Part shown: piece after piece, positions 16,006-62,179 of the stretch
Position numbering within the stretch: the stretch's first letter is position 1
Layout of the letters: the number at the start of each line of letters is the position of its first letter
DNA from: Chaetoderma sp. LZ-2023a
Taxonomy: Eukaryota; Mollusca; Caudofoveata; Chaetodermatida; Chaetodermatidae
Direction of reading: 5' to 3'
NCBI GenBank assembly: GCA_034401795.1
Contig: CM067365.1
Span: 10,928,145-10,992,144 of the forward strand
Length of the DNA: 64,000 nucleotides
Notes under the pieces: model-generated
What the model saw: only the letters and a program-made list of their open reading frames with translations
Database searches by the model: none
Told to the model about the DNA's origin: nothing
Program-made: the position numbers and the translations under genes

Positions 16006-16550
16006 TTATGCAACTGACAGGTTGAGCTGCCATTCCGTGGGATGACAAACCATCCTTCGATTGAGTGCATCCGCTAGGATGTTGAATCTGCCCGGAATGT
16101 GCGCTATCAGAAGAATGACATTCTTCTCTTGGCACCACAACAGAAGTTTCCAAATCATCATGCATAACTCTGGTGATCTCGTCCTGACTTGGCGGTTTAA
16201 ATAAGACACCACTGTTAAGTTGTCTGCCATTATTATGACTACTTTGTCTTGGATTCTGTCATCGAACTGTCCAAGTGCTAATGCCACCGCTAATAGTTCT
16301 AAGACATATGTTTCTGCACTTTTGATCGATCCCTTTCGACAGACACCGACAGATTGTCCAGTACCGCTCTCCATCCTGTCGCAGACATGTCTGCGAAGAT
16401 GGACATCCACGGCTGAGGAGGCTGATTCTATTCTGACAGCCACCATTGAAGGTGGTATATCAATGGTTCTTCCATTGGAATCCTCAGAGACAATGGATCT
16501 GTCCTCGAAGACCAGAATGACATTAGATACACTTGAATCTGCCTGCGTCT
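16006..16550 (-). pseudogene. DIRS RNase H domain, broken
   Basis: 'IFADMSATGWRAVL' (near 16,350-16,400, in another frame) is the first RNase H strand with its Asp. 'AETYVLELLAVALAL' holds the Glu helix and 'VVIIMADNLTVVSYLNRQ' the next Asp. 'IPGRFNILADALNRRM' is the C-terminal Asp region. A frameshift lies between the first and second motifs. Confidence 0.8.
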
Positions 16551-38079: not shown

Positions 38080-38410
38080 TGGATCAGATCTGTCACTCAA
38101 GTACATGACGTTATAATCAATTATGTCATATGTAGGCTGATGTCACAATTAAAATGGGTAATGAATGACATATCTAAGTCCGTCATGAAAATTGAATAGT
38201 CTATCAAGTGTACGATTTACATGTCTTTAATATTTAATAAATAATTTGTTGAACAATTTTAAACTAATTTTACTAGATGCTGTTGCTGCTATAGTTAAAT
38301 TAGTTTCAAAATATTTAACAGGTTAACTGTATAATTATCTTGAAAATGGGATTCTGAGAATTCACTGTTCAAAGTATATAAATCGATCACAACACAGGTA
38401 AACCATGTGC
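38080..38410. repeat. MITE-A copy leading into the tail minisatellite
   Basis: Left end 'ggatcagatctgtcactc', CRE-like block, core palindrome at 38,250-38,325, then 'cagttcaaagtatataa'-type sequence. Its tail motif passes directly into the tandem array that starts near 38,405. Confidence 0.85.
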
Positions 38411-42699: not shown

Positions 42700-43462
42700 C
42701 TACCTGCCATGATTCAGACCAGTCCCGGTTAGTGACAGCAGCTGCCTCTGTGAACTATGCGGTCTTGAGGATGGATGATGGTCTCTGCTTGGAATACTCG
42801 GAAGCGATGGCGAAACATTTATTCCTCGGTGATTATGAAGAGAATTAGCTGTTATCTCACTTGCATTTGGCCCCGATAAAGATTCGCTATACCTGGATCT
42901 CTGAGCGTGACTTAGTGTATGATTTTCTGTATCAATGTGTAATGGTGAGGAATTGGAAGGCAGGATTAATGCTTGGTGTGCTTCATCATGGGAGTAGTGA
43001 GCGGGACGTAAATCCCCCGAATCTTGAATAATCGTTCTATCCAAGGGATTATGTACAAATACTGCTCTGTCATTGTAACCACGATCTACAGTTCTATCAG
43101 GCTCGGTTCTGTCCACAGTCAAACCTGATATCGTCATAGCTGTAGAATTATGACCATCAGTTACCTCCCTTGTTCTGTTTCGTGGATGAGTTCTTTCCCT
43201 TGAATTCGGAAGGCTTCGTATTTCATTAATATTTCTCCGCGATGCTAAATTATGCCGATTTTGTGATAATGAATTTGTATCGGTATGGGACGAGTTCATT
43301 TGTGTAGGCGATACATGGCTAGTGGGAATTCTAGCAATACCTATTCCTGGAATTTCTAAGTGAATATCTGTGTTGCTATGATCACTAGACTGGATGCTAG
43401 CGTGCCTCCGGAGTCCATGACCTGATGACATGTTCTGATGGCCGCTTACAGAAACATTAGAT
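42700..43462 (-). CDS. ZSWIM2: ZSWIM2-like gene, exon h: Ser-rich C-terminal tail
   Basis: Residues 366-619 of the readable protein and stop TAG (42,700-42,702). The acceptor 'ttctcatctgttatag' ends at 43,463; its first base completes an Arg codon left open at 45,700, and the frame runs through the first ATG of the plain ORF, so the true exon is longer than that ORF. The tail is Ser-, His- and Arg-rich and probably disordered. 'DIHLEIPGIGIARIP' resembles the 'LFIPGTGL' element that follows the last RING in vertebrate ZSWIM2. Just before the stop, 'AG|GTAGGC' could act as a donor, so another exon is possible, but no partner was found. Confidence 0.68.
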
Positions 43463-43524
43463 CTATAACAGATGAGAAGATATTATTAGTGGTGTTGGTA
43501 GTATGAGGGAGGGGATGAGGAAGA

Positions 43525-43543
43525 GGTGGGGAGCAGCAGCAGC

Positions 43544-43587
<44 letters not shown>

Positions 43588-43598
43588 CAATAGTAGTG

Positions 43599-43653
<55 letters not shown>

Positions 43654-43655
43654 GT
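43525..43655. repeat. (TAG)n trinucleotide microsatellite
   Basis: About 40 repeats of 'tag' with a few 'cag' and 'tgg' variants, in the last intron of the ZSWIM2-like gene. Gives false frames of poly-Ser, poly-Val, poly-Leu and poly-Tyr. Confidence 0.97.
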
Positions 43656-43767
43656 TTTTATTATTGTCAAGCATTAGTTCTAGGAACCCTGTCATTGGCG
43701 ATGGACTGGCACTAGGATATAGCACAGTTGATATTGGAATGTAATTTCCACATTTTTCAATTTTCGA

Positions 43768-43858
43768 CCCGAGTGAGGTTCGAACCCAGCAAATTCTATG
43801 GTCCCAATTCGCCTAGCGTTTGGGAGACGAGTAGTCTACTGGCCCACCATCCAGAGGA
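43768..43858 (-). repeat. Possible tRNA-derived SINE remnant
   Basis: On the - strand 'gggttcgaacct' (43,785-43,796) fits a pol III B box, and 'gtgggccagtagactac' some 55 bp before it is a weak A box. No tRNA cloverleaf with a proper acceptor stem was recognised. Confidence 0.35.
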
Positions 43859-43954
43859 AAAAAAATCCTCTTTCACCGGACCAGCTTTTAACTACCCGAC
43901 TCACAACCACACAAATTGACTGTAACTGATAATGTACATTCCAGACTTGGCAGC

Positions 43955-44366
43955 ATCAGCAGCAGTAGCAACACAAGCAGAAGCAGTAGGATTAGCAGTA
44001 GCAGCAGCCACATGAGCAGCACACCAGTAGCAGCAGCAGCACCAGTAGTAGTAGCAGCACCAGTAGTAGTAGCAGTACCAGCAGCAGCAGCAGCAGCCAC
44101 AGCAACAGCAGAAGCAGCAGTAGTAGTAGTAGTAACAGCAGTAGTGGCTGCAGCAGTAGTAGTAGCAGCAGCAGTTGTAGCAGCAGCAGTAGTAGCAGTA
44201 GCAGCAGCAGTTGTAGCAGCAGCAGCAGTTGTAGCAGCAGCAGCAGTAGTAGTACCAGCAACAGCAGTAGTAGTACCAGCAACAGCAGTAGTAGTAGCAG
44301 TAGGAGCAACAGCCACATGAGCAGAAGCAGCCACATGAGCAGAAGCAGCAACATGAGTAGCAGCAT

Positions 44367-44402
<36 letters not shown>

Positions 44403-44580
44403 CAGTAGTAGTAGTTGGCAGCAGTAGTAGTAGCACAGCATCAGCCATATGAGCAGAAGCAGCCACATGAGCAGCAGGATCAGTAGTAGTAGTAGTAGTA
44501 GCAGTAGTAGTAGTTGGCAGCAGTAGTAGTAGCACAGCATCAGCCATATGAGCAGAAGCAGCCACATGAGCAGCAGGATC

Positions 44581-44651
<71 letters not shown>

Positions 44652-44670
44652 GTGGTAGTAGTAGTAGTAC

Positions 44671-44704
<34 letters not shown>

Positions 44705-44713
44705 TGTAGTAGT

Positions 44714-44754
<41 letters not shown>

Positions 44755-44841
44755 CAGTAGTAGTAGTTGGCAGCAGTAGTAGTAGCACAGCATCAGCCAT
44801 ATGAGCAGAAGCAGCCACATGAGCAGCAGGATCAGTAGTAT

Positions 44842-44910
<69 letters not shown>

Positions 44911-44929
44911 GTGGTAGTAGTAGTAGTAC

Positions 44930-44963
<34 letters not shown>

Positions 44964-45073
44964 TGTAGTAGTAGCAGCAGCAGCAGCAGCAGTAGTAGTA
45001 GCAGCAGCAGTACAAGTAGTAGCAGTACAAGTAGTAGCAGTACAAGTAGTAGCAGTACAAGTAGTAGCAGTAC

Positions 45074-45119
<46 letters not shown>

Positions 45120-45185
45120 TGGCAGCAGTAGTAGTAGCACAGCATCAGCCATATGAGCAGAAGCAGCCACATGAGCAGCAGGATC

Positions 45186-45220
<35 letters not shown>

Positions 45221-45239
45221 GTGGTAGTAGTAGTAGTAC

Positions 45240-45270
<31 letters not shown>

Positions 45271-45374
45271 TGTAGTAGTAGCAGCAGCAGCAGCAGTAGT
45301 AGTAGCAGCAGCAGCAGTAGTAGCAGTACAAGTAGTAGCAGTACAAGTAGTAGCAGTACAAGTAGTAGCAGTAC

Positions 45375-45425
<51 letters not shown>

Positions 45426-45446
45426 CAGTACAAGTAGTAGCAGTAC

Positions 45447-45512
<66 letters not shown>

Positions 45513-45557
45513 CAGTACAAGTAGTAGCAGCACAAGTAGTAGCAGCAGCAGGCATAT
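43955..45557. repeat. Trinucleotide array with a repeated spacer cassette
   Basis: GCA/GTA-type trinucleotide repeat, 1.6 kb. A non-repetitive cassette of about 65 bp, including 'agcatcagccatatgagc' and 'agccacatgagcagcagg', recurs near 44,437, 44,537, 44,788 and 45,139, with (TAG)n blocks of variable length between. Another sub-repeat, 'agtagcagtacaagt', occurs in runs at 45,000-45,080, 45,320-45,380 and 45,420-45,450. Located in the intron between exons g and h. Confidence 0.95.
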
Positions 45558-45699
45558 GAGCAACAGTTGGCCTGATAAATTATCTGTAACAGAACTAAAG
45601 TGATGGGGGATATATGGGTGAGCTAAAAGTTGATTCTGCTAATGTGAGATCTCAGGATGTTAGGGTTTAAAGGGTTAATTGTCTTCACATTTAGCTCAC

Positions 45700-45824
45700 C
45701 TGGCATTCTGGTGACCCCCATCATGATCTTCATCTAATGATGCTGGAGTGGTCACAACTTGACCACATGCTGGACATGATGACCGTGAATGTAAGAGCCA
45801 TGGGTCAATGCAGTCTTTGTGAAA
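45700..45824 (-). CDS. ZSWIM2: ZSWIM2-like gene, exon g: second half of RING-H2
   Basis: 125 bp, residues 325-365. Acceptor 'ttattag' (ends 45,825), donor AG|GTGAGC. It encodes 'FHKDCIDPWLLHSRSSCPAC' then 'GQVV', giving the last four zinc ligands of a RING-H2 finger: His326, Cys329, Cys341 and Cys344. Together with exon f the ligand pattern is C-x2-C, C-x-H-x2-H-x2-C, C-x2-C. Phase 0 on entry matches the phase-0 end of exon f; the exit phase matches exon h. The exon is too short for ordinary ORF listing and lies 5.6 kb from exon f, behind the large minisatellite. Confidence 0.88.
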
Positions 45825-45884
45825 CTAATAACATCATAAAATACATGTAATAATGTGATCAAAATGACAATATACAGTAAAACA

Positions 45885-48800
45885 ATAAAGCGCCCTAAAG
45901 GAGCACCAAAACAATGAAACAATAAAGCACCCTAAAGGAGCACAAGAAACAGTGAAACAATGAAGCCCCTAAAGGAGCACCAGAAACAGTGAAACAATAG
46001 AGCCCTAAAGGAGCACCAAAACTATGAAACAATAAAGCACCCTAAAGGAGCACAAGAAACAGTGAAACAATGACGCCCCTAAAGGAGCACCAGAAACAGT
46101 GAAACAATGAAGCCCCTAAAGGAGCACTAGAAAACAGTGAAACAATGAAGCCCCTAAAGGAGCACCAGAAACAGTGAAACAATGAAGCCCCTAAAGGAGC
46201 ACAAGAAACAGTGAAACAATAGAGCCCTAAAGGAGCACTAGAAACAGTGAAACAATGACGCCCCTAAAGGAGCACTAGAAACAGTGAAACAATAGAGCCC
46301 TTAAGGAGCACTAGAAACAGTGAAACAATAGAGCCCTAAAGGAGCACTAGAAACAGTGAAACAATCAAGAGCCCTAAAGGAGCACTAGAAACAGTGAAAC
46401 AATCAAGAGCCCTAAAGGAGTACCAGAAACAGTGAAACAATAGAGCCCTAAAGGAGCACTAGAAACAGTGAAACAATAGAGCCCTAAAGGAGCACTAGAA
46501 ACAGTAAAACAATGACGCCCCTAAAGGAGCACCAGAAACAGTGAAACAATAGAGCCCTAAAGGAGCACTAGAAACAGTGAAACAATAGAGCCCTAAAGGA
46601 GCACTAGAAACAGTGAAACAATGAAGCCCCTAAAGGAGCACCAGAAACAGTGAAACAATAGAGCCCTAAAGGAGCACTAGAAACAGTGAAACAATAGAGC
46701 CCTAAAGGAGCACTAGAAACAGTAAAACAAGAGCCCTAAAGGAGCACTAGAAACAGTAAAACAATGACGCCCCTAAAGGAGCACCAGAAACAGTGAAACA
46801 ATAGAGCCCTAAAGGAGCACTAGAAACAGTGAAACAATAGAGCCCTAAAGGAGCACTAGAAACAGTAAAACAATAGAGCCCTAAAGGAGCACTAGAAACA
46901 GTGAAACAATAGAGCCCTAAAGGAGCACTAGAAACAGTGAAACAATAGAGCCCTAAAGGAGCACTAGAAACAGTAAAACAATAGAGCCCTAAAGGAGCAC
47001 TAGAAACAGTGAAACAATAGAGCCCTAAAGGAGCATTAGAAACAGTAAAACAATGACGCCCCTAAAGGAGCACCAGAAACAGTGAAACAATAGAGCCCTA
47101 AAGGAGCACTAGAAACAGTGAAACAATAGAGCCCTAAAGGAGCACTAGAAACAGTAAAACAATAGAGCCCTAAAAGAGCACTAGAAACAGTAAAACAATA
47201 GAGCCCTAAAGGAGCACTAGAAACAGTAAAACAATGACGCCCCTAAAGGAGCACCAGAAACAGTGAAACAATAGAGCCCTAAAGGAGCACTAGAAACAGT
47301 GAAACAATAGAGCACTAAAGGAGCACTAGAAACAGTAAAACAATAGAGCCCTAAAGGAGCACTAGAAACAGTGAAACAATAGAGCCCTAAAGGAGCACTA
47401 GAAACAGTAAAACAATGACGCCCCTAAAGGAGCACCAGAAACAGTGAAACAATAGAGCCCTAAAGGAGCACTAGAAACAGTAAAACAATAGAGCCCTAAA
47501 AGAGCACTAGAAACAGTGAAACAATGAAGCCCTTAAAGGAGCACTAGAAACAGTGAAACAATAGAGCCCTAAAGGAGCACTAGAAACAGTGAAACAATGA
47601 AGCCCCTAAAGGAGCACAAAAACAGTGAAACACTAGAGCCCTAAAGGAGCACTAGAAACAGTGAAACAATAGAGCCCTAAAGGAGCACTAGAAACAGTGA
47701 AACAATAGAGGCCTAAAGGAGCACTAGAAACAGTGAAACAATCAAGAGCCCTAAAGGAGCACTAGAAACAGTGAAACAATGAAGCCTTTAAAGGAGCACC
47801 AGAAACAGTGAAACAATAGAGCCCTAAAGGAGCACTAGAACAAGTGAAACAATAGAGCCCTAAAGGAGCACTAGAAACAGTAAAACAATGACGCCCCCTA
47901 AAGGAGCACCAGAAACAGTGAAACAATAGAGCCATAAAGGAGCACTAGAAACAGTGAAACAATAGAGCCCTAAAGGAGCACTAGAAACAGTGAAACAATA
48001 GAGCCCTAAAGGAGCACTAGAAACAGTAAAACAATGACGCCCCATAAAGGAGCACTAGAAACAGTGAAACAATAGAGCCCTAAAGGAGCACTAGAAACAG
48101 TGAAACAATAGAGCCCTAAAGGAGCACTAGAAACAGTAAAACAATGAAGCCCCTAAAGCAGCACCAGAAACAGTGAAACAATGAAGCCCCTAAAGGAGCA
48201 CCAGAAACTGAAACAATGAAGCCCCTAAAGGAGCACCAGAAACAGTGAAACAATGAAGCCCCTAAAGGAGCACCAGAAACAATGCAGCCCCTAAAGGAGC
48301 ACCAGAAACAGTGAAACAATGAAGCCCCTAAAGGAGCACCAGAAACAATGAAGCCCCTAAAGGATCACCAAAACAGTGAAACACTAGAGCCCTAAAGGAG
48401 CACCAGAAACAGTGAACCAATGAAGCCCCTAAAGGAGCACCAGAAACAATGAAGCAATGAAGCCCCTAAAGGAGCACCAGAAACAGTGAAACAATGAAGC
48501 CCCTAAAGGAGCACCAGAAACAATGAGGCAATGAAGCCCTTAAAGGAGCACCAAAACAGTGAAACAATAGAGCTCTAAAGGAGCACTAGAAACAGTAAAA
48601 CAATGAAGCCCTTAAAGGAGCACCAGAAACAGTGAAACAATGAAGCCCTTAAAGGAGCACCAGAAACAATGAGGCAATGAAGCCCTTAAAGGAGCACCAA
48701 AACAGTGAAACAATAGAGCTCTAAAGGAGCACTAGAAACAGTAAAACAATGAAGCCCTTAAAGGAGCACCAGAAACAGTGAAACAATGAAGCCCCTAAAG

Positions 48801-50572
48801 GAGCACCAAAACAGTGAAACACTAGAGCCCTAAAGGAGCACCAGAAACAGTGAAGCAATGAAGCCCCTAAAGGAGCACCAGAAACAATGAAGCCCCTAAA
48901 GGAGCACCAGAAATAGTGAAACAATGAAGACCCTAAAGGAGCACCAAAAACAGTGAAACAATGAAGCCCCTAAAGGAGCACCAAAACAGTGAAACACTAG
49001 AGCCCTAAAGGAGCACCAGAAACAGTGAAGCAATGAAGCCCCTAAAGGAGCACCAGAAACAATGAAGCCCCTAAAGGAGCACCAGAAATAGTGAAACAAT
49101 GAAGACCCTAAAGGAGCACCAGAAATAGTGAAACAATGAAGACCCTAAAGGAGCACCAAAAACAGTGAAACAATGAAGCCCCTAAAGGAGCACCAGAAAC
49201 AGTGAAACAATGAAGCCCCTAAAGGAGCACCAGAAACAGTGAAACAATGAAGCCCCTAAAGGAGCACCAGAAACAATGCAGCCCCTAAAGGAGCACCAGA
49301 AACAGTGAAACAATGAAGCCCCTAAAGGAGCACCAGAAACAATGAAGCCCCTAAAGGATCACCAAAACAGTGAAACACTAGAGCCCTAAAGGAGCACCAG
49401 AAACAGTGAATCAATGAAGCCCCTAAAGGAGCACCAGAAACAATGAAGCAATGAAGCCCCTAAAGGAGCACCAGAAACAGTGAAATAATGAAGCCCTTAA
49501 AGGAGCACCAGAAACAATGAGGCAATGAAGCCCTTAAAGGAGCACCAAAAACAGTGAAACAATAGAGCTCTAAAGGAGCACTAGAAACAGTAAAACAATG
49601 AAGCCCTTAAAGGAGCACCAGAAACAGTGAAACAATGAAGCCCCTAAAGGAGCACCAAAACAGTGAAACACTAGAGCCCTAAAGGAGCACCAGAAACAGT
49701 AAAACAATGAAGCCCCTAAAGGAGCACCAGAAACAGTGAAGCAATGAAGCCCCTAAAGGAGCACCAGAAACAGTGAAACAATGAAGCCCCTAAAGGAGCA
49801 CCAGAAACAGTGAAACAATGAAGCCCCTAAAGGAGCACTAGAAACAGTGAAACAATGAAGCCTCTAAAGGAGCACCAGAACAGTGAAACAATGAAGCCTC
49901 TAAAGGAGCACCAGAAACAGTAAAACAATGAAGCCCCTAAAGGAGCACCAAAAACAGTGAAACAATGAAGCCCCTAAAGGAGCACCAGAAACAGTGAAAC
50001 AATGAAGCCCCTAAAGGAGCACCAAAAACAGTGAAACAATGAAGCCCCTAAAGGAGCACCAAAAACAGTAAAACAATGAAGCCCCTAAAGGAGCACCAGA
50101 AACAGTGAAACAATGAAGCCTCTAAAGGAGCACCAAAACAGTGAAACAATAGAGCCCTAAAGGAGCACCAAAACAGTGAAGCAATAGAGCCCTAAAGGAG
50201 CACCAGAAACAGTGAAACAATGAAGTCCCTAAAAGAGCACAAGAAACAATGAAGCCCCTAAAGGAGCACCAAAACAGTGAAACAATAAAGAGCCCTAAAG
50301 GAGCACCAAAACAGAGAAACAATAAAGAGCCCTAAAGGAGCACCAAAACAGAGAAACAATAAAGATCCCTAAAGGAACACCAAAACAGTGAAACAATAGA
50401 GCCCTAAAGGAGCACCAAGAGTGAAACAATAAAGAGCCCTAAAGGAGCACCAAGAGTGAAACAATAGAGCCCTAAAGGAGCACCAAAAAAGTGAAATAAT
50501 AAATAGCTCTAAAGGAGCATCAAAGCAGTGACACAATAAAGAGCCCTAAAGGAGCACCAAAACAATGAAACA
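45885..50572. repeat. 36/37-bp minisatellite, 4.7 kb, in the RING-splitting intron
   Basis: Some 130 copies. Two unit types: 36 bp ending 'gaaacaatagag' and 37 bp starting 'cccctaaaggagcacc' and ending 'aacaatgaag' or 'aacaatgacg'. The 36-bp type dominates 46.2-48.1 kb and the 37-bp type 48.1-50.1 kb; shorter decayed units (20-28 bp) lie at both margins. Clusters in which one 'atgacg' unit is followed by several 'atagag' units recur at 46.50, 46.76, 47.05, 47.23 and 47.41 kb. Open frames of 60-67 codons inside are repeat artefacts. Confidence 0.97.
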
Positions 50573-50684
50573 GATATATTCTGAATTCTGGTCGAGTCCA
50601 TTTATCCATGTTTGTGGATATTGAACCATTATCGGTTAGCCGTTTAGTGCCTGAATTTTCTACAGAAAATTAAAATGTGCTTAT

Positions 50685-50770
50685 TGAATATCCATTTGCA
50701 GGTCAAGAGTAGACTATTTTTGAAAATTTACCACTGGAATGACTGACTCAAGACCACTACAGAGGTCGGT
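50685..50770. repeat. MITE-B half copy
   Basis: 'tatttttgaaaatttacc' and 'actggaatgactgactc' are one arm of the MITE-B hairpin; the second arm is absent. Confidence 0.7.
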
Positions 50771-50974
50771 TTCGCCATGAAAGGGCTAAACAGAACGAAG
50801 GAGAGAATAGGCACTATTACTACATCAGGAGCATTGTGAGCGGTATGGCAGGTAGGGAACTTGCCATACCAATACTTTGCTCAAAATGAATCTTCAAATC
50901 ATGAACATACAACTATTATTTACTTGCTAGCTATTTAACCTATCAGACCAAATACAGCAAGTAACTTTTCACGA

Positions 50975-51095
50975 TGTAAAAATTAATCTGTTGAATATTT
51001 TTGAAAGAAATTTGACTGGAAGCCGCTGCTGCCTCAGGCAGCAATGGTTTCCAGTCAAATATCTTTCAAAATATTCAACAGATTAGTTTTACCAG
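50975..51095. repeat. MITE-A core palindrome
   Basis: Arms around 'gctgctgcc' and 'ggcagcaatgg' with 'aaatatctttcaaaatattc'. Only the hairpin core is left, in the intron between exons f and g. Confidence 0.8.
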
Positions 51096-51409
51096 CAAGA
51101 ATGCATGAAATGACTTCTCAGCGGATCTAATTTTCACAATTTTTCAGTGAGGAAACAGCGAAATCACTTACTTTGGGAAGAGGAAATCCCCTCTCAGACA
51201 TTGCCCTACCCAGCTCTGGTAGCTGGCGATGTCCATGTACATCCATTTAGAAGAAACATCCAAGTTAGCGAAATGTTACTAAAATGCATTATATTAGATT
51301 GTTGCTGTCAGATGTGAAGCACTATCTCCCTTAACACATGATTAAGAAATTTTAACTGTTCAAAACAAAACGAATTAAGAAAGATAACTGAAAATGTATC
51401 TTCAAATAC

Positions 51410-51578
51410 CTTATGTTGGCATGGTAGCTTCCGGACAAACTGCTGCAATTGAAACGCTCTTAAGCAGACACGACACTGCCTTCCAGGGGCCAAGAGATGA
51501 CTCGTCTCTCGTACTTTCTCAAGCGGCAAACTATTAATAGCCTCTTCAGAAAGACTGCTGGGATCAGGATTCTCATGA
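51410..51578 (-). CDS. ZSWIM2: ZSWIM2-like gene, exon f: first half of RING-H2
   Basis: 169 bp. The first base completes a Ser codon begun in exon e; the last codon is Lys324 at donor AAG|GTATTT. It encodes residues 268-324, with 'GRQCRVCLRAFQLQQFVRKL' and 'PCQHK': ligands Cys303, Cys306, Cys321 and His323 of the RING-H2 finger. This corresponds to the third zinc domain of vertebrate ZSWIM2 ('CRLCLKSF...LPC.H'). Reading on past the donor, as in the uninterrupted 93-codon frame, loses the remaining ligands, so the exon must be spliced to 45,824. Confidence 0.9.
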
Positions 51579-51599
51579 CTACAACACACAAAAGCAAGG

Positions 51600-52355
51600 A
51601 GATTTATGCAGTTGTATATTAGGCATTGTTACATTGAGCTAGACATGGTGGATCCAAGAGATTAATGGAGTTGTACACTACGTGGAGCTCGATACTGGTG
51701 GATGCAGAAATATTGAATAGAGAGGGTTACAGGTGCTTCTGAGGACACACATCGATATTGGAACTCACCATTCTGTAGTGTTACACTGACAGGATACTGG
51801 TGAAAATTGTGGCACTTTATTATGGCCATTGCATCGTGCTGTACTATTGCAGTGTCTCAGATTAGTTCCAGTAAGCTTGATCGTACAAAAATGCAGGGCA
51901 GATTGCGGACTTTGGTGTAATGTAAAAACCGTGGTTTATATAATAACCATAACATTTGACCTTATGAGCTTGATATTATTGTGATGCATCCACTTGATAT
52001 AAGCCAGCGTGTGTCTAAGTTTAATCCATGGAGTGAACCAACCCTCAGATATATTATACAATAAATTGAGCTAAACCAAAAACTTTATACAAATTTTACG
52101 CAGACAGGGAAACAGACAGACAAACAGATTAATTGAGCCAAATGATATATTGGTAGATATTCTAATTTTACCAACAACAAGTGATGATAAATACATTGTG
52201 GACAGAAATACCATTGGAGGAATTCTATGTGCAAGTTTATTGAAGAAAAATCTCCACTAGGGTTCATAGCTACATGTAACAATAACAAACGTCAGAGAGT
52301 ACATAAAACTATAAAACTAAAGTTCAGATTTCCTAAATGGCCACCTACCTGATCA
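51600..52355. other. Intron between exons e and f; no gene
   Basis: Holds the 'gagctaaacc' repeat theme seen at 1.1-1.4 kb (near 52,030-52,080), otherwise nothing recognised. Confidence 0.5.
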
Positions 52356-52359
52356 GTAT

Positions 52360-52685
52360 CTAAATGGACCTTTCCAGTTTTACCTACGCCATGCCCATCT
52401 CTATCTAAGCTCCACTCACACCTTGTCGGTATTGGGATTGATCGATCTTTAAACTCCCTGACAGTAAGCTGTTACATATTTTGAAACAACGCAGCAACAG
52501 CGTCCAGTTAAATTAGTTTCAAAATATTCAACAGAATGTTTATTAAATGGTAAAGACACACAATTCGTACAACGTGTCAGACTATTAAGTGTTAAAGATG
52601 GATTATATCGAATCATTCATCACGTCATCCTACACATCGCGTAGTTGATTATGATGGATGGATAAACTTGAAAATGTCCATTAGA
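52360..52685. repeat. MITE-A copy (inverse orientation)
   Basis: 'ggacctttccagttttacc' at the left and 'aacttgaaaatgtcc' at the right, single core arm near 52,505-52,535 and CRE-like blocks. Confidence 0.78.
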
Positions 52686-52731
52686 TTATGTATTCAGCAA
52701 GACTGGCACCTTCCCCTCGTAATGACCATAC

Positions 52732-52859
52732 CTGTCAAGCTGTAGAAGCAGATCATAATCATTGTCCGAGATGTCTCTGTTTAACAGATCACTGACCACA
52801 GCACTGGGCAATGTCCAGCCTGTCTGTCGCTGTGCTGGACGCCAGCGCTGATTACGCTT
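52732..52859 (-). CDS. ZSWIM2: ZSWIM2-like gene, exon e: linker after the ZZ finger
   Basis: 128 bp, residues 226-267. Acceptor 'gtttttttag', donor AG|GTATGG. It encodes 'KRNQRWRPAQRQTGWTLPSA' and an acidic part 'DISDNDYDLLLQLD'. The start 'KRNQRW' corresponds to 'KRNQKW' directly after the ZZ finger of vertebrate ZSWIM2. Phases fit exons d and f. Too short to appear as a long frame. Confidence 0.88.
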
Positions 52860-53185
52860 CTAAAAAAACAACATAGATTAGAAAATACGCTAACCACGAG
52901 ATGCAAGAGAAACATGGAATGTTTGTGTATACTTCACAGACTTCATGCTGAAATTATACAGACTACATCACATACATTCATGCATGTACACACATGCATG
53001 AACACTCACGAACCCAGAAATACATGCACATATAACTGTATACATGGATGGATGACGTTACACAAATTTGTTTGAAAGCTGTTGTCGTCACAAAATTTTA
53101 ATCAAATTGTACTCAGATATTCCGCATCAGCTAGGCGAGCAATGTTGAGGGGAAAGAATTTGAAGAAAACAAAGAGTTACTGTAC

Positions 53186-53270
53186 CTGCCTAAACTGGAA
53201 TGCATGGTCTGTGTGTATTGGTGTATTGAAGCAGGACTGACACAGGTAATATTCAGCGCACACTGTACAC
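53186..53270 (-). CDS. ZSWIM2: ZSWIM2-like gene, exon d: ZZ finger, second half
   Basis: 85 bp, 28 full codons (residues 198-225). Acceptor 'tatttttcag', donor CAG|GTACAG. It encodes 'CTVCAEYYLCQSCFNTPIHT' and 'DHAFQFRQ', the core of a ZZ-type zinc finger: the Cys pairs C-x2-C and C-x2-C and the closing His residues. The vertebrate counterpart reads 'CTECIEYHLCQECF' here. ZZ fingers bind zinc and usually peptide termini. The uninterrupted frame to the left of the donor has no similarity. Confidence 0.9.
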
Positions 53271-53334
53271 CTGAAAAATAACATTTACTGCTACATGTAT
53301 ATAGAGAGTTTATACAGGTATTCATCGACATTAT

Positions 53335-53515
53335 GGTATAAATAGCATCGACAATAGGATCGAACCCACAACTTGCAAAAGTGCCTAGCTTCATTGCCCA
53401 CTAACATTACCACCAAACCAACGCTGAATGCATCGGCCTGGTGGTAATGTTTGTGGGCTATGATGCTAGGTGCTGTCACCAGTTGTGGGTATGATTTTCT
53501 GTAGCTGCTAGATAG
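53335..53515. repeat. Inverted tRNA-like or SINE-like repeat
   Basis: 'gatcgaacccacaactt' with 'cctagcttcattgcccac' is followed by inverse 'gtgggctatgatgctagg' and 'ccagttgtgggtatgat'. Arms of roughly 70 bp face each other around 'gaatgcatcggcc'. The 'gatcgaaccc' part resembles a B box. Intronic. Confidence 0.5.
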
Positions 53516-53674
53516 GTGTATCTGAGAGTAGGTGTGTTCAAAGCTTACTCATCTACATGTACATCAGCACACAATGAACATAACTCAACCATCCCGCCAG
53601 CATCTGATGAATCTAGATTCTCACTCATCTACAGCATAATCTGTGCAATATAAAACTAAGTCATACACAGACAG

Positions 53675-53729
53675 AGACAGACAGATAGCTAGACAGACAC
53701 ACACAAACATGCACATGCACGCGAGCACG

Positions 53730-53770
<41 letters not shown>
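53675..53770. repeat. (CA)n microsatellite
   Basis: Starts in 'agacagacag' repeats, then 'cacacacacaca' for about 45 bp. Confidence 0.97.
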
Positions 53771-53772
<2 letters not shown>

Positions 53773-53919
53773 GCAATACTTTGTGACGCGAGAAATAAAT
53801 CTCTCAGGGAAGAGAGAGTCACCGTACCCATGCTAGTTAGGTAATCATGGTAACAGGCAGGTTTTAACAGTTTAACCTCATAGACCAGGATTGACAGTTT
53901 TATTATGCTGTAAGGAATA

Positions 53920-54045
53920 TTCTTTTGAATATTTTAAAACTAATTTGACTGAGAGCTGTTGCTGCCTATAGCAACAGCTTCCAGTGAAATAAGTTTTAAA
54001 CTAGTCAACAGCTTTCTTGTATAGTTGTTTTGAAATTGAGACATC
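53920..54045. repeat. MITE-A core palindrome
   Basis: 'gaatattttaaaactaat' and an inverse arm 'gaaataagttttaaac' around 'gctgttgctgcc'. Tail and left part lost. Confidence 0.75.
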
Positions 54046-54206
54046 AGAATTTCAAGTGGTAAAACGCTAATACATTACTTGACTCCTGACATGATTTCAA
54101 ATATAAATGTGTTTCATCACCTGAAGAAGCAGACACCAACATATGTGCGCGACAGTATAACATTAGTCAGAGAGTGGAACAAGCTTTGAATCAACAATAT
54201 ATATAC

Positions 54207-54455
54207 CTGTAACATTTCCCTTCAATAGGACGGACATGACAGCTGCTACACGTGGTACCGAGGTGTCGATCAAGTCTCAATGCCTGGTTCCTTGTGCCTG
54301 GATTTGATGAATTGCGGCTCTCTTGCTTAAGAAGTTCAAAAGGGCCAAAGTCCTCACGGCAAAATGGACACTTAATAGCAGTCTCTCCTTGTGATTTCTG
54401 ATGTTCAGCCCAGACAGTCATACACTTTATGTGAACACTGTTACCACAACCAAAT
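54207..54455 (-). CDS. ZSWIM2: ZSWIM2-like gene, exon c: end of RING1, start of ZZ
   Basis: 249 bp. The acceptor 'atttatctttag' ends at 54,456; the exon begins one codon-phase before the 'FGCGNSVHIKC' segment, which lies upstream of the first ATG of the plain ORF. It encodes the second half of the first RING ('FGCGNSVHIKC' then 'IKCPFCREDF') and, after a linker, 'HLGTTCSSCHVRPIEGKCYR', the first half of the ZZ finger. Vertebrate ZSWIM2 has the same order and nearly the same spacing. Donor AG|GTATAT; the split Arg codon is completed by the first base of exon d. Confidence 0.92.
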
Positions 54456-54539
54456 CTAAAGATAAATATAATTTAACATAACCTAGCTATGAAGAAATTA
54501 CGGTACACATGATCAAGCTTTCAACAAGTCTTCTAAATT

Positions 54540-54915
54540 TACCATTAATAGATCTTTCCAGTTTATCCATCGAACATATGATGTCATAATCAACTAGGTC
54601 CTACGTGACTTGTTTGATGTCATAGTCAATTATAACATGGATGACGTAGATAACTTCTTCATGAATGCTTAATTGATGATGGACTAAGAATTGCTGTACA
54701 AATTGTATGTCTTTACTATTTAATAAACATGCTGTTGAATATTATGAAACTAATTTGACTAGGCAGCAACAGCACCCAGTCAAATTAGTTTCAAAATATT
54801 CAACAATCTACCAGTATAGTTTTCTGGAAACTGATAGTCAGGGATTGATCGATCCCAACATGGGCAAACTGTGGCTGGAGATTAGCTAAAACTTGATTCC
54901 ACCATTAGAGCATTA
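54540..54915. repeat. MITE-A copy
   Basis: CRE-like left part, 'aattgtatgtctttact', complete core (54,735-54,805) and tail. Lies in the intron between exons b and c. Confidence 0.85.
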
Positions 54916-55023
54916 TCTTGAGGAATGTTAGCTCAATAAACAGCCATATACCGTATAGTCCGTTAGTCCCTTAGTCAGTCACAAAAGCTTATTCTGGGCT
55001 ATATCTAAGAACCTACTGATACG

Positions 55024-56618
55024 CAGGGTGGGAAAAAATCAGATTTTTTCGATTTAATCAGATTTGACCAATTGTTTTTTTTTTACTTCGATAGCAAAAT
55101 CATTGATTTTTACATGCACTCATACTTTTAGGTTACTTCTAGGTGTTGAGTGGTCACAAGAGTAGTCTTCTGTAACCGCGTCCTCTTTATCTGACTCCCT
55201 AACAACAATGTGACTTCCGGTAGATAGGGGTGCTTCATAATCAAATAAAACATCTTGGTTATTCCATGATTTATCTAATCTATTTTTAAACACATTTAGA
55301 CTTGGTGCTGTTACTACATTTGTAGGTAAGCTATTGCAGATATTTACAATTCTCGATAGGAATGCCTTGTGTCTTATGTTTTTATTTGCCCTTTGTTTAC
55401 TTAAGTTGTAATTGTGTCGTCTCAGGCAGCGTGATGTTTCACTTGATAGTTTTAACTTTGGTGCTATCCATGGATCATAAATATCATTCAGTAATTTGTA
55501 TACTTCAATCATATCTGCTCAATGTCTTCTGTATGTTAATGTTGGTAAATTTAATTTCCTAATTCTGTTTTCATACGACAATTCTCTCAGGCCTGGTAAT
55601 TGTTTTGTTGCTCGCTGCTGGATGTTTTCTACTGCATCAATGTGTTTCTGTTTGTATGGGCACCAGACTGGGGTTGCATAATCAAAATGTACCAGGACAA
55701 GCGATTTGTACAGTGGAGTGAAGGTTTCGATATCCAGATATTTGTGTACCATTCTGATCCATCCTGCCATTACATTGGTTATTTTTAATCTTTGTATTAA
55801 CATATGTTCTTCAAAGCTAAGCTTTTTAAGCTAAGCTAAGCTCATGTTCTGAACTCAATAGAATCTAATGTCTAGGAGGTATAAACAATGTTGACCTTAT
55901 TTATACTATAATTATTTTATTAAAAATTAAAATGTACTATGACAATAAGCATCTCAGAATTTGTTCTTGTTGTTCTTAAGACATTCTAAAATTTGTTATC
56001 ACATTTTGAAATAACTGCTGTTCTACTGGATGGGTCATGACCAAACATCAAATAAAAATGACTACACTACCGTAACCATTTTAACGATCTTATTATTTTG
56101 TGGATACAATTTTCCAGGCAGTATAACTCTGGACATGGCATAAAATATTTTGAAAACAATTTAACTGAATGTAGTCAGCAATTACTGCCAGTCAAATTAG
56201 TTTCAAAATATTCAGCTGGTCTGAAGTTGTTATTGTCTATTGAAATTATTGTCTAGTGGCTGCCAGCAGACAACGGCCAGTCAGTTAAAAATAATGTCCA
56301 CAGAACTGTTATAAATATTATTGATCTGGGCTGTTTACAGGTCAAATAACAACTAAGGAGTTTCCACTAACTGTAGTACTGTACTGATAGAAATAAAGCT
56401 TCTTAGTTCTTATATTAGCATAATGTTGTATAACCATGCCTATTAACTAGCTGAAACAATAGCTACAATAACTTTTAACAACAAAATCTTTATAAATTTT
56501 ATAGTGCAAATGAGGAGGACAAAATCAAAAGAATAAAAAAAGTTGATTTTTTCAGCTTGATTTAATAGTTGATTTAATCATATGATTTAATCAATTTGAT
56601 TAAATCAAAACAAACCTG
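55024..56618. mobile_element. hAT-like element, 1.6 kb, with captured LINE fragment
   Basis: Termini 'CAGGGTGGGAAAAAATCAG' and inverted 'CAGGTTTGTTTTGATTTAAT' share the tip and the subterminal 'gatttaatca' motif repeated at both ends. Flanks 'ctgatacg' (55,016-55,023) and 'ctgatagg' (56,619-56,626) form an 8-bp duplication with one change. No transposase. Contains a LINE 3' part and, near 56,145-56,215, a MITE-A core. Confidence 0.82.
55120..55803 (-). pseudogene. LINE ORF2 C-terminal region
   Basis: The end of a non-LTR retrotransposon polyprotein, after the RT palm: 'FTPLYKSLVLVHFDYATPVW' with 'CPYKQKHIDAVENIQQRATK', 'LPGLRELSYENRIRKLNLPT', then 'DMIEVYKLLNDIYDPWIAP'. One in-frame TGA (55,516-55,518) divides it; the two halves are otherwise in the same frame, so this is a nonsense change and not a shift. 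RT catalytic motifs and endonuclease are absent (5' truncated). Confidence 0.88.
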
Positions 56619-56944
56619 CTGATAGGATTTGGTTCAAATTTTAACACAATGAAGGAACTTAATGTGCAAGAGGATTCCAAGACATTGGCCGTGATCTGGA
56701 CAAAAGAACTCAGATCCAGATAGGATCAAATTCTGAATCTGGATATTTCAGAAACTACACGTACTGGTCCGATTAGGCTCAAATTTGAACATGTAACCAT
56801 ACACTAGATCCCTCAACTTTGCGGCTGATAAAAAAAAATCTGGAAAATCCGAAGAAATCCTGAACACGCAGTTACCAATATTCTATAAATCCTGTTAACC
56901 CTTTAACCTCCCAAGTCAGCCAAAAACAGCTTCTGTAGCGGTAT

Positions 56945-57090
56945 TGAGAAATATCAATTTGCAGACCAAGATAAGACTATTTTTTGAAAATTTACCACTG
57001 GAATGACTGGCTCGATAATAGAGCCAGTCATTCTAGTGGTAAATTTTCAAAAATAGTCTTATCTTGGTCTGCAAATTTAAATTTTCTATG
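56945..57090. repeat. MITE-B hairpin copy
   Basis: Nearly perfect inverted arms of about 60 bp: 'aatttaccactggaatgac' and its inverse around 'ggctcgataatagagcc'. Confidence 0.92.
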
Positions 57091-57254
57091 AAAAAAATTT
57101 AAATTTTGTTAAAAAAATTAAAGTGTTAAAGGGTTAAACCAATCGTTAACCAGAGCAATACAACCCCCTCCACCCCCCCACCCCCCCCCACACACACACA
57201 CCCTCACTATAGCTGCTAACTATGAGTCTTAAAACATCACATTTTATATTATCC

Positions 57255-57662
57255 TTAATTATCAATTGTCCTTTCCATTTTTAGTTATGCCCCGCCCATC
57301 ACTAGCTAAGCTCCACCCACACCTCGCCGTGTTGGGATTGATCGATCCCCAAATGCCCTAGCTATCGATTTCCAGAAAACTATACAGGGAAGCTGTTGAA
57401 TATTTTGTAACTAATTTGACTGGGTGCTGTTGCTGCCTATGGCAGCAACAGCGCCCAGTCAAATTAGTTTCAAAATATTCAACAGAGTATTTATTAAATA
57501 GTAAAAGCAAACAATTTGTACAACAATGCATAGACCGTCTTCAAATATGCGTTCGTGACGTACTTATCGACGTCATTCATGACATCATTCATTATGATGT
57601 CATTCTACACTCACAGAGTTCATTATGACGTCTTATGATGGGTGGGTACTCTGGAAAGGTGA
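57255..57662. repeat. MITE-A copy (inverse), closely matching 42,309-42,693
   Basis: By eye the two copies differ at roughly one base in 25. Begins 'cctttccatttttag', ends 'tactctggaaagg'; flanks share 'aattgt'. Full core palindrome at 57,385-57,485. Confidence 0.9.
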
Positions 57663-57779
57663 ATTGTCATGACTCTCACATGTACATTTATATTATTTCT
57701 AACAAAACTTTCAAAGAAACGTGAATTAATAACGGCACCTGATTCATGAGATTAAGATAAGCAGCAATGGCTTCCACTG

Positions 57780-58055
57780 AAATGGATGGGTCCGATTTGT
57801 CACTCAAGTATATGTCATCATAATCAATTGCGTCACATGGAGGCTGACATCACAATCAAAATGCATCATAATGAATGATGTATTAAATTAACTCATTGAA
57901 ATTGCCAATTTGCAGACCAAGAGACTATTTATTTAAAAAATGTATCACTGGAATGAATGGCTCGATCCAGTCACTTCATTGGTAAATTTTCAAAAATACA
58001 CTTCTCTTTGTCTTCAAATGAACATTTCTCAAGACCCCTGCAGAAGCCATTTTTG
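57780..58055. repeat. MITE-A left end followed by a MITE-B copy
   Basis: 57,785-57,885 is the CRE-like left portion of MITE-A without a core. 57,905-58,025 is a MITE-B hairpin with diverged arms. Confidence 0.7.
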
Positions 58056-58119
58056 GCTGGCTTGAGTATTAACGGTTAACATGGTTAATGGTGAACCCCG
58101 CAAAAAAAGCATTCTGGCC

Positions 58120-58255
58120 TGGAGAAGTGTCCATTTGGGGGCCAGCAAAGAATATCTTTAAAAATGTATTACTGGAACGACTGACTCGATAACTGAACTA
58201 GTTATTACAGGATTTAATTACAAAAAATAGTCTTCTCTTTGCCTGAAAAGAGAGA
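58120..58255. repeat. MITE-B hairpin copy, diverged
   Basis: 'aaaatgtattactggaac' and the decayed inverse arm 'tattacaggatttaatt'. Lies about 100 bp beyond the donor of exon b. Confidence 0.65.
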
Positions 58256-58357
58256 TTTAATTTGCAAAAAGATAAAAAATTTATTTTCTTGAATCTCCAA
58301 ATCTTGATTGAAGGCGTAACAATGCCCATAGTACCACATGTAAGTTAAGTTCCATAC

Positions 58358-58580
58358 TTGCAATATGTGACTGGAAGTTTCTTCTCCAGCAGTCCATCTT
58401 GACATATGGGACAAACATCATTCTCTGATATGCCTCTTTGCTCGTGAACATCTCGGCCATCAGATGCGGATTCCAAGAGCTTCTGGTGTAATGGAATAGC
58501 TTTCTTAGCGGGCTGCTGTACATGCAGGCCTTGTAGTATCTCATTGATTTCCCGTTCAACCAAACCAAGCTGCCATGTTA
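58358..58580 (-). CDS. ZSWIM2: ZSWIM2-like gene, exon b: linker and start of RING1
   Basis: 223 bp, residues 40-113. Acceptor 'catctgtctgcag' ends at 58,581; donor AA|GTATGG. It encodes 'WQLGLVEREINEILQGLH' and 'DVCPICQDGLLEKKLPVTYC'. The first block matches the segment after the SWIM finger in vertebrate ZSWIM2 ('LQLGLGEREI'), the second the first RING ('CSICQELLLEKKLPVTFC'). Cys96 and Cys99 are the first zinc pair. The exon enters with two bases that complete the Val codon begun in exon a. The in-frame stop past the donor shows the splice is needed. Confidence 0.92.
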
Positions 58581-58614
58581 CTGCAGACAGATGACAAGGA
58601 ATAATCAAAGAACA

Positions 58615-59014
58615 CAGGGTTCATACACCTTTCTATGTTTGAAATTCCATGACTTTTCCTGACCAAAGTTAACAAATTCCATGACTTTCAAGAATTATTA
58701 TCTAATAGATTTGTGTTATGATGTAGCTACATAAATTACGATCCGAGTTATTCCGCAAATGTGTGAATATTGCGTCTTGCAACAAGCAAGCCAAAGCCTT
58801 GTTTTGATAAGCTGTTGCCATAATTTTTATTGCACAGAGGTGATGGCAGTAATTTATACTAATAGATTTCTTTTCCTTTTCATGATTACCATTTTCCATG
58901 ACTTTTCCATGACCTATGATTAAAAATATTGATTTTACATGACTTTCCAGGCCTGGAATTTAAATTTTCAAATTCCATGACTTTCCTGGATTTCAATGAC
59001 CAGTACTAAACCTG
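58615..59014. mobile_element. Probable hAT-like non-autonomous element, 400 bp
   Basis: Ends 'CAGGGTTCATACACC' and inverted 'CAGGTTTAGTACTGG'. 'agaaca' occurs on both sides, but a clean 8-bp duplication cannot be fixed by eye. Internal 'attccatgacttt' motifs repeat at both ends. In the intron between exons a and b. Confidence 0.45.
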
Positions 59015-59104
59015 AGAACAGTTAAATATGACGATATTTAAAACGTGCAATTAATTTCTATTTTAGCTGTTAGTAGCAGCTCCAAGAAACAGTTTCCATG
59101 TTCC

Positions 59105-59126
59105 TTAGTTAGTCAGTCAGTCAGTC

Positions 59127-59166
<40 letters not shown>

Positions 59167-59258
59167 GGTTGGTTGGTTGGTTGGTTGGTTGGTTGGTTGG
59201 TTGGTTGGTTGGATGGCTAGTTAGTTAGTCAGTCAGTCAGTCAGTCAGTCAGTCAGTC

Positions 59259-59294
<36 letters not shown>

Positions 59295-59369
59295 GGTTGG
59301 TTGGTTGGATGGCTAGTTAGTTAGTTAGTCAGTCAGTCAGTTAGTTGGTTGGTTGGTTGGTTGGTTGGC

Positions 59370-59401
<32 letters not shown>

Positions 59402-59402
59402 C

Positions 59403-59461
<59 letters not shown>

Positions 59462-59467
59462 CAGTAA
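59105..59467. repeat. Tetranucleotide array (AGTT/AGTC/GGTT)
   Basis: About 90 repeats in alternating blocks of 'agttagtt', 'agtcagtc' and 'ggttggtt', with 'ggatggctagtt' as a repeated block border (twice), which points to duplication of larger blocks. Confidence 0.97.
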
Positions 59468-59611
59468 CAAAAGCTTATTCCAGGCAGTAGCTTCCAGAGT
59501 TTTTCGTATACACTAATCAAACTTGACCAGTGTATGCATGCACTGTCGGCTTAAGGTGTGTACAGTAACAAAAGTAGGCCAGTGTGACCTGAGTGTGACC
59601 TAACTTTCACA

Positions 59612-60068
59612 TAGGCTTGTGAGATTATTGCGTTGAGTGATTGCGATCGACTATTGAAAAATAATTGTGATTACTCGATTAATCAGCTTGGATACAAATT
59701 ATCAAGACATAATAACAAAAGAATATCAATGACGAAAACTGCAATGGTGTTTAAGAAAAGTCCATTTGAAGGGTGAGAGATTATTTTGGAAAATGTATCA
59801 CTGGAACGCCTGGCTCGATCAGGCATTCCAGTAAAACATTTTCAAAAATAGTCTTCTCTTGCCCTGCAAATGGACATACATTCACTAAGTAAAATATAAT
59901 TTTTCATGACCGATCGCATTAAAAAATAATTGAAAGTTAGGTTTTGAAATATTTTATGCAGTAGAAAATATTCACGACTAATCGATTATTTAATTTTCAA
60001 TCAAATAAATTCACGATTTAAAACATAATCGCGATTTTCGATTTTAATCAAGTAATCATGTAAGCCTA
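59612..60068. mobile_element. hAT-like non-autonomous element, 457 bp
   Basis: Starts 'TAGGCTTGTGAGATTATTG', ends with the inverse of 'TAGGCTTACATGATTACT'. Flanks 59,604-59,611 and 60,069-60,076 are both 'ctttcaca', a perfect 8-bp duplication. Contains a MITE-B-type hairpin at the same relative place as 26,191-26,630, in reverse orientation, so both descend from one composite. Confidence 0.92.
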
Positions 60069-60189
60069 CTTTCACACTTCACTAAACATCATAGAAAATT
60101 CCTGTCAAGGCTGTAAATGTAGTTTCCAGAGTTATTTGTATACACTAATTAACCTTGCTGTATGCATGCATTGTAGTGTGTACCGTCAA

Positions 60190-60560
60190 AAGACTGGTCA
60201 TGTATCTGACATCATAATCAAAGACATCACATGTTAGCTGATGCCACAATTAAAATGATATATAGATCTGTCACGAAAAATCGAGGGCTGTAACTATAGT
60301 GTACGAATTGTATGTCTTTGATGCATTTACAACTTAATACACATTCTGTTGAATATTTTGAAACTAATTTGACTGGCACAAACGGCCCCAGTCAACTTAG
60401 TTTCAAAATATTCAACAGCCTACCTGTATCTATAGTTACCGGTATCTTGAAATTTAAAGCCTGGGAATTTTAGTTTCAACATTTTAATTCAATTCCAACG
60501 CATTTAAATAGTGGGCAGAGTTTAGTTAAAAATGAGTGGAATATAGCCAGAAATAATCCT
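60190..60560. repeat. MITE-A copy
   Basis: Left CRE-like part weak, 'gaattgtatgtctttgatg', full core (60,350-60,420) around 'ggcacaaacggcccc', decayed tail. Confidence 0.8.
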
Positions 60561-60904
60561 TAATAATAGGTAAGAATGCTAATCAGTTGATATTTACAAG
60601 CTAGCCGTTGATGTCTATCGGTTGCTAGGTTAAGTTTTTGACAGTATTCTTTAACAAATTTTAATCTGCATCTACATTTTGATTATAATAGATACGCAAT
60701 TGTCTTCATGCAAGCATATGTTTACAGCTCGGCTGCTACATAGGATGAATAAATGTACCAAGATTTCACAGTTTATCATTGGTAATAGCAGGCTGTTATA
60801 TCTGCTTAATATTGGCATATATCTTAGGAAGTCAATGACCCATATTTATATTGTATTACCTACCAGACTAGGATTGTCTCGGTGAATGCAGCTGTATTAC
60901 CTAC

Positions 60905-61022
60905 CGGGATTGTCTCTGGGAATACGGAACCTCTTCAGCAGCAGCCAGCAGATATGCTTACACACACCTTTCTCTTTTGCAAACACAGCACAGGTGCAAT
61001 GATGAGGGTCACCCAGGTAGAC
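60905..61022 (-). CDS. ZSWIM2: ZSWIM2-like gene, exon a: SWIM zinc finger
   Basis: 118 bp, residues 1-39 of the readable part; earlier exons lie beyond 64,000. Acceptor 'ctactgtgttag' ends at 61,023, donor G|GTAGGT. It encodes 'VYLGDPHHCTCAVFAKEKGV' and 'CKHICWLLLKRFRIPRDNP'. The SWIM signature is C9-x-C11, then C21-x-H23. Vertebrate ZSWIM2 reads 'VFLGNPHVCNCSTF' and 'LCKHICWVLLKKF' here. ZSWIM2 is an E3 ubiquitin ligase of testis in mammals, so a role in germ cells is possible here but only by analogy. This exon has no long ORF around it. Confidence 0.92.
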
Positions 61023-61574: not shown

Positions 61575-61973
61575 CTACACCGCTAAATTTATTCCTATCG
61601 GTTCCATAGTGTGGAGTTGGTGGATCCAGTGACATTCCTTTTGCCTCCTCCAAACCGTTGAGTTTGGATCTGTCGGATCCGATGATAGGACTTGTATGAT
61701 CCTGTATTGCATGTCATTTCTGTGATGCACGGGTCTGTTGAAATGGCGTGATACTGGTGTGTCGTATCTTTCATGTTTGTAGAGGTTTGTAATGGAGCAT
61801 AGGTGCTCTTGGATCCTGATCTTGAAAGGTCTCAGGGTTTCTCCTACATATTGTTTGCCACACTGATTACAGCTCAGGAGGTAAACTACATTGTGTGTTC
61901 TGCAGTTTCCTATAATTTTGTCTCTGTAGGAGAGGCCTGTGTGCTTACTGGAGAAAAATCTTGACTTAACCAT
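61575..61973 (-). pseudogene. GIY-YIG endonuclease domain of the Penelope-like element
   Basis: 'CRTHNVVYLLSCNQCGKQYV' then 'GETLRPFKIRIQEHL' is the GIY-YIG core with its catalytic Arg region; 'WRRQKECHWIHQLHTMEPIG' with 'INLAV' holds the conserved Glu and the usual C-terminal end. Upstream, 'LPCETKNCNICKIW' (62,000-62,040, overlapping frame) resembles the Cys pair of the CCHH motif. The domain is intact to the stop codon but has no RT attached in frame. Confidence 0.85.
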
Positions 61974-62179
61974 ATTTTACAGATGTTGCAATTCTTGGTT
62001 TCACATGGGAGGAGGGGGTTGTGGTGGATGTCTGTGTTGTTGTGGTCTGGATCTGGTAATTTCACCCTGACTATGGTGTCTTTTATTCGTTTTTTTCTTT
62101 TTGAAGCCAAACAATGGTGTGTCTGGGAAGGCCAGTCTGCAGCGGTCAGTGCCCTGTAGAATTGGACAATGTTTGACAA
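61910..62179 (-). pseudogene. Penelope-like linker region
   Basis: 'LASKRKKRIKDTIVRVKLPD' is the basic block that links RT and endonuclease in Penelope-like elements, followed by the Cys-rich segment. It is in a different frame from the GIY-YIG part, so a frameshift lies near 61,975-62,010. Confidence 0.75.

Follow-up and report, generated by a model that had tools for sequence, protein, structure and literature searches.

The stretch of DNA analyzed here, hereafter the window, comprises 64,000 nucleotides (nt) of the genome of the caudofoveate mollusc Chaetoderma sp. LZ-2023a (contig CM067365.1), and it contains, on the minus strand, all coding exons but the first of a gene that resembles ZSWIM2. 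The original prediction described this locus as an eight-exon gene with a ZSWIM2-like product. The eight exons are indeed present (118, 223, 249, 85, 128, 169, 125, and 763 nt long, in the order of translation), and when spliced, they yield 1,860 nt in a single frame that encodes 619 amino acids (aa), with the sole stop codon at its very end. Direct reading of the sequence confirmed that AG precedes all eight exons and that GT follows the first seven. Given that the first of these exons begins with an acceptor and that the joined protein has no initial methionine, the exon list is incomplete. The complete gene consists of nine coding exons that span about 27 kb and encode 671 residues, so that, of the eight-exon gene originally proposed, the exons stand and the total does not, the coding exon 1 being located outside the window. 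The exons are listed below in the order of translation; extended coordinates continue the numbering of the window past its end.

Coding exon 1, extended coordinates 69690-69845 (G000:C7:10997834-10997989), minus strand: outside the window
Coding exon 2, 60905-61022, minus strand: SWIM finger, CxC-x9-CxH; open frame, AG/GT; PF04434 at 27.4 bits
Coding exon 3, 58358-58580, minus strand: linker and start of the first RING; open frame, AG/GT; both junctions score highest locally
Coding exon 4, 54207-54455, minus strand: remainder of the first RING (C4HC3 spacing) and start of ZZ; PF13639 and ligand pattern
Coding exon 5, 53186-53270, minus strand: remainder of ZZ; PF00569; gapless alignment with PDB 2dip over both junctions
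Coding exon 6, 52732-52859, minus strand: end of the 2dip-like region and linker; acceptor backed by 2dip, donor by consensus and frame only
Coding exon 7, 51410-51578, minus strand: linker and first part of RING-H2; donor backed by PDB 7bvw, acceptor by consensus and frame only
Coding exon 8, 45700-45824, minus strand: remainder of RING-H2; the PF13639 zf-RING_2 match spans the junction
Coding exon 9, 42700-43462, minus strand: 254-residue tail with no known domain; stop codon at 42700-42702

Most of these exons are inconspicuous as open reading frames (ORFs). Among the ORFs of at least 100 aa in the window, only those at 51410-51578 and 42700-43462 appear, so that six of the eight exons escape notice at this threshold, compared to four in the original prediction, which gave no threshold. 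The two alternative frames of the nine-exon coding sequence contain 26 and 62 stop codons.

The missing first exon was sought in the 39.7 kb of the same genome that lie upstream of the window with respect to the gene, using a motif of the ZSWIM2 N-terminus. A stricter form of the motif matched two stretches, of which the one at 69726-69761 shows the fuller likeness; the second match, near 103304, does not share this likeness and was dropped by eye. The exon that contains the first match opens with an ATG (extended coordinate 69845) that has in-frame stop codons immediately upstream, and it ends at the donor AAG/GTATTA at 69690, 5.7 kb past the end of the window. It joins exon 2 in phase 0, the two being separated by 8,667 nt of intron. 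With exon 1 added, the best aligned stretch of MEKK1 (PDB 9p40) scores 82.9 bits, compared to 55.9 bits for the query without it (the two queries differ in length), and this alignment is gapless at the exon 1/2 junction, the first gap appearing a few residues later.

The encoded protein contains four zinc fingers in the order SWIM, RING, ZZ, RING-H2, which is the order in ZSWIM2 and the order that had been predicted; it is borne out both by Pfam searches and by the patterns of zinc ligands. The SWIM (PF04434) and ZZ (PF00569) families and, in two separate stretches, the RING family (PF13639) all exceed the Pfam cut-offs. A 39-residue piece containing the SWIM finger scores 27.4 bits against a cut-off of 19.6, and a 70-residue piece containing the first RING alone scores 30.6 bits against a cut-off of 27.3. 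The RING-H2 finger matches PF13639 (zf-RING_2) with an E-value of 4.4e-14 over residues 302-344 of the 619-aa model, that is, residues 354-396 of the 671-aa protein, and this match crosses the exon junction at residue 324 of the shorter model. All four fingers have complete sets of zinc ligands (in the 671-aa numbering, SWIM at 61-75, C4HC3 RING at 148-198, ZZ at 235-271, and C3H2C3 RING-H2 at 355-396). The same layout, a SWIM finger followed by two RINGs with a ZZ between them, is given for ZSWIM2, also denoted MEX (MEKK1-related protein X), in PMC4878042.

A search of 177,635 distinct PDB sequences, queried with residues 1-390 of the 619-aa model, produced 68 matches, the best of which was the ZZ region of ‘Zinc finger SWIM domain-containing protein 2’ (2dip, E = 6.9e-25). 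In this alignment, which spans two exon junctions without a gap, 40 of the 81 residues are identical, and the score of 91.4 bits is far above the 31.6 bits of HERC2, the next ZZ chain. This match supports the ZSWIM2-like identity originally proposed for the spliced protein. The second-best match was the SWIM-RING region of MEKK1 (9p40), which, with exon 1 included in the query, reaches an E-value of 1.5e-22 over residues 28-202. A search of NCBIfam identified no family, as expected, given that its models target prokaryotes.

To assess the splice junctions, every in-frame combination of GT and AG sites within 45 nt was scored against a solved relative spanning the join. Such a relative covers five of the seven junctions of the original prediction, and the pair of sites chosen there came out best at each of the five, among 6, 7, 12, 12, and 4 pairs compared, respectively. 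At the exon 6/7 junction (52732/51578), 13 of the 15 in-frame pairs within 60 nt keep the frame open, and at the exon 8/9 junction (45700/43462), 6 of 7 do so, the predicted pair being included in both cases. Because several in-frame pairs stay open, the sites at these two junctions are unproven, but given the splice consensus, the strength of the sites, and the frame, they are likely to be correct. Ranked among the sites of the strand by a textbook matrix, which is not trained on the host organism, the exon 6/7 donor and acceptor are in the top 0.7% and 5.9%, respectively, and those of exon 8/9 in the top 0.2% and 0.8%.

We take 42700-43462 as the true last exon of the gene, on the strength of its long open frame, strong splice sites, and fit of phase. 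When 5,000 random sequences of similar composition were drawn from a first-order Markov model, the frame of this exon stayed open in none of them, so that the open frame exceeds what is expected by chance.

Additional copies of the gene were sought in the entire assembly (2.44 Gb in 2,753 contigs), the search scoring the best candidates only. All three matches to a SWIM-RING query and three of the four matches to a RING-ZZ query fall within the ZSWIM2 locus; the fourth RING-ZZ match, located on contig C8 and considered as a possible paralogue, is the ZZ finger of sequestosome-1 (PDB E-value of 4.9e-20, compared to 1.5e-05 for 2dip). A RING-H2 query produced 15 matches, 2 in the locus and 13 elsewhere at 36-61% identity, the latter being attributable to the commonness of this type of finger. 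Thus, no second ZSWIM2 was found in the genome with the SWIM-RING, RING-ZZ, and RING-H2 queries, among the best candidates scored and with the 13 RING-H2 matches elsewhere uninspected.

Taken together, we consider it about 95% probable that the nine exons constitute a single protein-coding gene, which is this mollusc's orthologue of ZSWIM2 (MEX) and encodes a protein of 671 residues with four zinc fingers and a tail that has no known domain. The orthology is supported, at the level of sequence comparison, by the 81-residue ZZ match, the domain architecture, and the lack of a further copy in the genome. Several points weigh against this interpretation, in addition to two literature reports, on fertility and on expression, that are cited below. 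The 254-residue tail matches no Pfam family and differs from the core in composition, with guanine plus cytosine (GC) fractions of 0.486, 0.498, and 0.324 at the three codon positions, compared to 0.547, 0.427, and 0.444 in the core, that is, with a markedly lower third-position value; codon use in the tail and the core correlates with r of only 0.47 over 51 codons. Two of the eight junctions (6/7 and 8/9) have no homology cover and admit several open alternatives, and at the exon 1/2 junction, only one in-frame pair exists, so that the chosen pair had no competitor in the test. By the textbook matrix, neither the donor of exon 1 (top 11.4% of sites) nor any of the acceptors of exons 2, 4, 5, and 8 (top 26.7, 18.9, 16.8, and 27.5%, respectively) is strong. 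The start site at 69845 is a prediction. At the other end of the gene, no polyadenylation site could be fixed downstream of the last exon, the nearest ATTAAA being located 232 nt and the first AATAAA 704 nt past the exon end.

The two introns that flank exon 8 consist mostly of noncoding tandem repeats, detected with Tandem Repeats Finder:

45874-50572, no strand assigned: 37-base-pair (bp) minisatellite in intron 7 (before exon 8), with about 130 copies that make up 4,699 of the intron's 5,585 nt
43544-45551, no strand assigned: AGT and GCA triplet arrays in intron 8 (after exon 8), in rows 43544-43653 and 43950-45551, that make up about 1,712 of the intron's 2,237 nt

The minisatellite, which can be read alternatively as an array of a 109-bp unit, ends 49 bp from the exon 8 acceptor. 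The matches to its unit that are listed in the genome, at least 50, all lie within this array; only one candidate place was scored, so that rarity of the unit is not shown. The AT skew is 0.655 in the minisatellite and 0.233 in the triplets, compared to 0.041 in the DNA that separates and follows these arrays; hence the strong skew at 44-52 kb is due to the tandem arrays. It is conceivable, and in our estimate quite improbable, that these arrays of 1.7 and 4.7 kb vary among individuals and make the splicing of exon 8 variable; were this the case, alleles would differ in the amount of ZSWIM2 without a working RING-H2.

An ORF within intron 1 (61575-61976, minus strand) encodes a GIY-YIG domain that barely exceeds the cut-off (22.8 vs 22.6 bits) and that is typical of Penelope-like retroelements. 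Outside the gene, the window carries remnants of several transposons. These include retrotransposon pieces on the plus strand at 6239-7292, with a reverse transcriptase (6239-6643) and an RNase H (6816-7292) above the cut-off, and an open frame of 343 residues at 7611-8642 for a transposase of the Tc1/mariner type, with HTH_Tnp_Tc3_2 and DDE_3 domains above the cut-off. Weak matches to reverse transcriptase or RNase H on the minus strand, at 16006-16596 and 29751-30914, are all under the cut-off; these frames presumably belong to DIRS-like retroelements. At 38405-39637, about 59 tandem copies of a 21-bp unit leave several frames open on each strand, so that the long ORFs there probably are not genes. 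An open frame of 241 residues at 2557-3282 resembles a membrane protein; a channel of the aquaporin-11/12 type was considered by look and was set aside, there being no Pfam or PDB match. Elsewhere in the genome, the haemocyanin family PF14830 is matched 44 times, each time above the cut-off, compared to no match in 14 control genomes, and one of the copies resembles PDB haemocyanins, KLH1 included, which are molluscan. The haemocyanin genes thus mark the genome as that of a mollusc.

The repeats and the GIY-YIG ORF are what might suggest that the locus is a pseudogene of ZSWIM2, or a gene broken by large intronic arrays, with its exons surviving but no complete transcript produced: tandem repeats account for most of introns 7 and 8, and intron 1 contains a retroelement-like frame. 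Against this, the nine exons contain neither a frameshift nor an internal stop codon, GT and AG are preserved at all eight introns along with every zinc ligand, and no other SWIM-RING copy was found among the best candidates scored in the genome. We therefore regard decay of the gene as very improbable. Still less credible is the possibility that the locus encodes not the ZSWIM2 orthologue but a different SWIM-RING protein, for example, a relative of the kinase MEKK1, or a paralogue particular to this lineage, because, although the SWIM-RING half aligns to MEKK1 with an E-value of 1.5e-22, the ZZ and RING-H2 fingers come next, Pfam detects no kinase domain, and the ZZ finger favors ZSWIM2 by 91.4 bits to 31.6 for the next ZZ chain. 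The locus is, then, an ordinary, intact-looking mollusc copy of an already known gene.

Judging by its family, the ZSWIM2 protein of this mollusc would be an E3 ubiquitin ligase, the activity of Zswim2 being recounted in PMC4878042. An E2 enzyme would bind via one of the RINGs, in our opinion most likely the C-terminal RING-H2, and the protein would ubiquitinate itself as well as substrates. It would act in germ cells, perhaps in males and females alike. According to PMC9277888, the expression of ZSWIM2 is testis-specific in mouse and human, and Zswim2 knockout male mice remain fertile; because these mice retain fertility, an essential role in spermatogenesis is doubtful. In the pearl oyster Pinctada margaritifera, a contig named zswim2 belongs to gonad clusters 1 and 2, with expression rising in gametogenesis in both sexes, and stands outside the male-specific clusters (PMC4082630). 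Given that male and female oyster gonads both express the contig, male-specific expression is not to be assumed in this mollusc, and the oyster data speak against regarding restriction to testis as a defining trait of ZSWIM2 among molluscs. For mammals, it is reasonable to begin with testis RNA, but in Pinctada, the only mollusc whose expression data were considered here, the contig is active in the gonads of either sex. Among 38 papers that name zswim2, the pearl-oyster report is the only one recognizable as a mollusc study; a Mytilus paper uses the broader designation ‘zinc finger SWIM domain-containing’ and not zswim2.

The present analysis provides a complete ZSWIM2 gene model with a corrected start in a large mollusc genome and shows that the layout of four fingers is kept outside vertebrates. 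With the mouse knockouts fertile and the oyster contig expressed in both sexes, molluscs may be better suited for the study of the role of this gene in germ cells; beyond this question, the locus is a matter of routine annotation.

Compared with known systems, the gene is closest to ZSWIM2, with which it shares the same finger layout and, in the fragment represented by PDB 2dip, 40 of 81 residues; it differs in the mollusc last exon of 254 residues without a known domain, the comparison being one of architecture and of this PDB fragment. With MEKK1 (9p40), it shares the SWIM finger and the C4HC3 RING, aligned over query residues 28-202, whereas the present gene has ZZ and RING-H2 fingers and no kinase domain detected by Pfam. 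The zswim2 of Pinctada margaritifera is a mollusc transcript so named by its authors, and is likened to the Chaetoderma gene by name, not by sequence.

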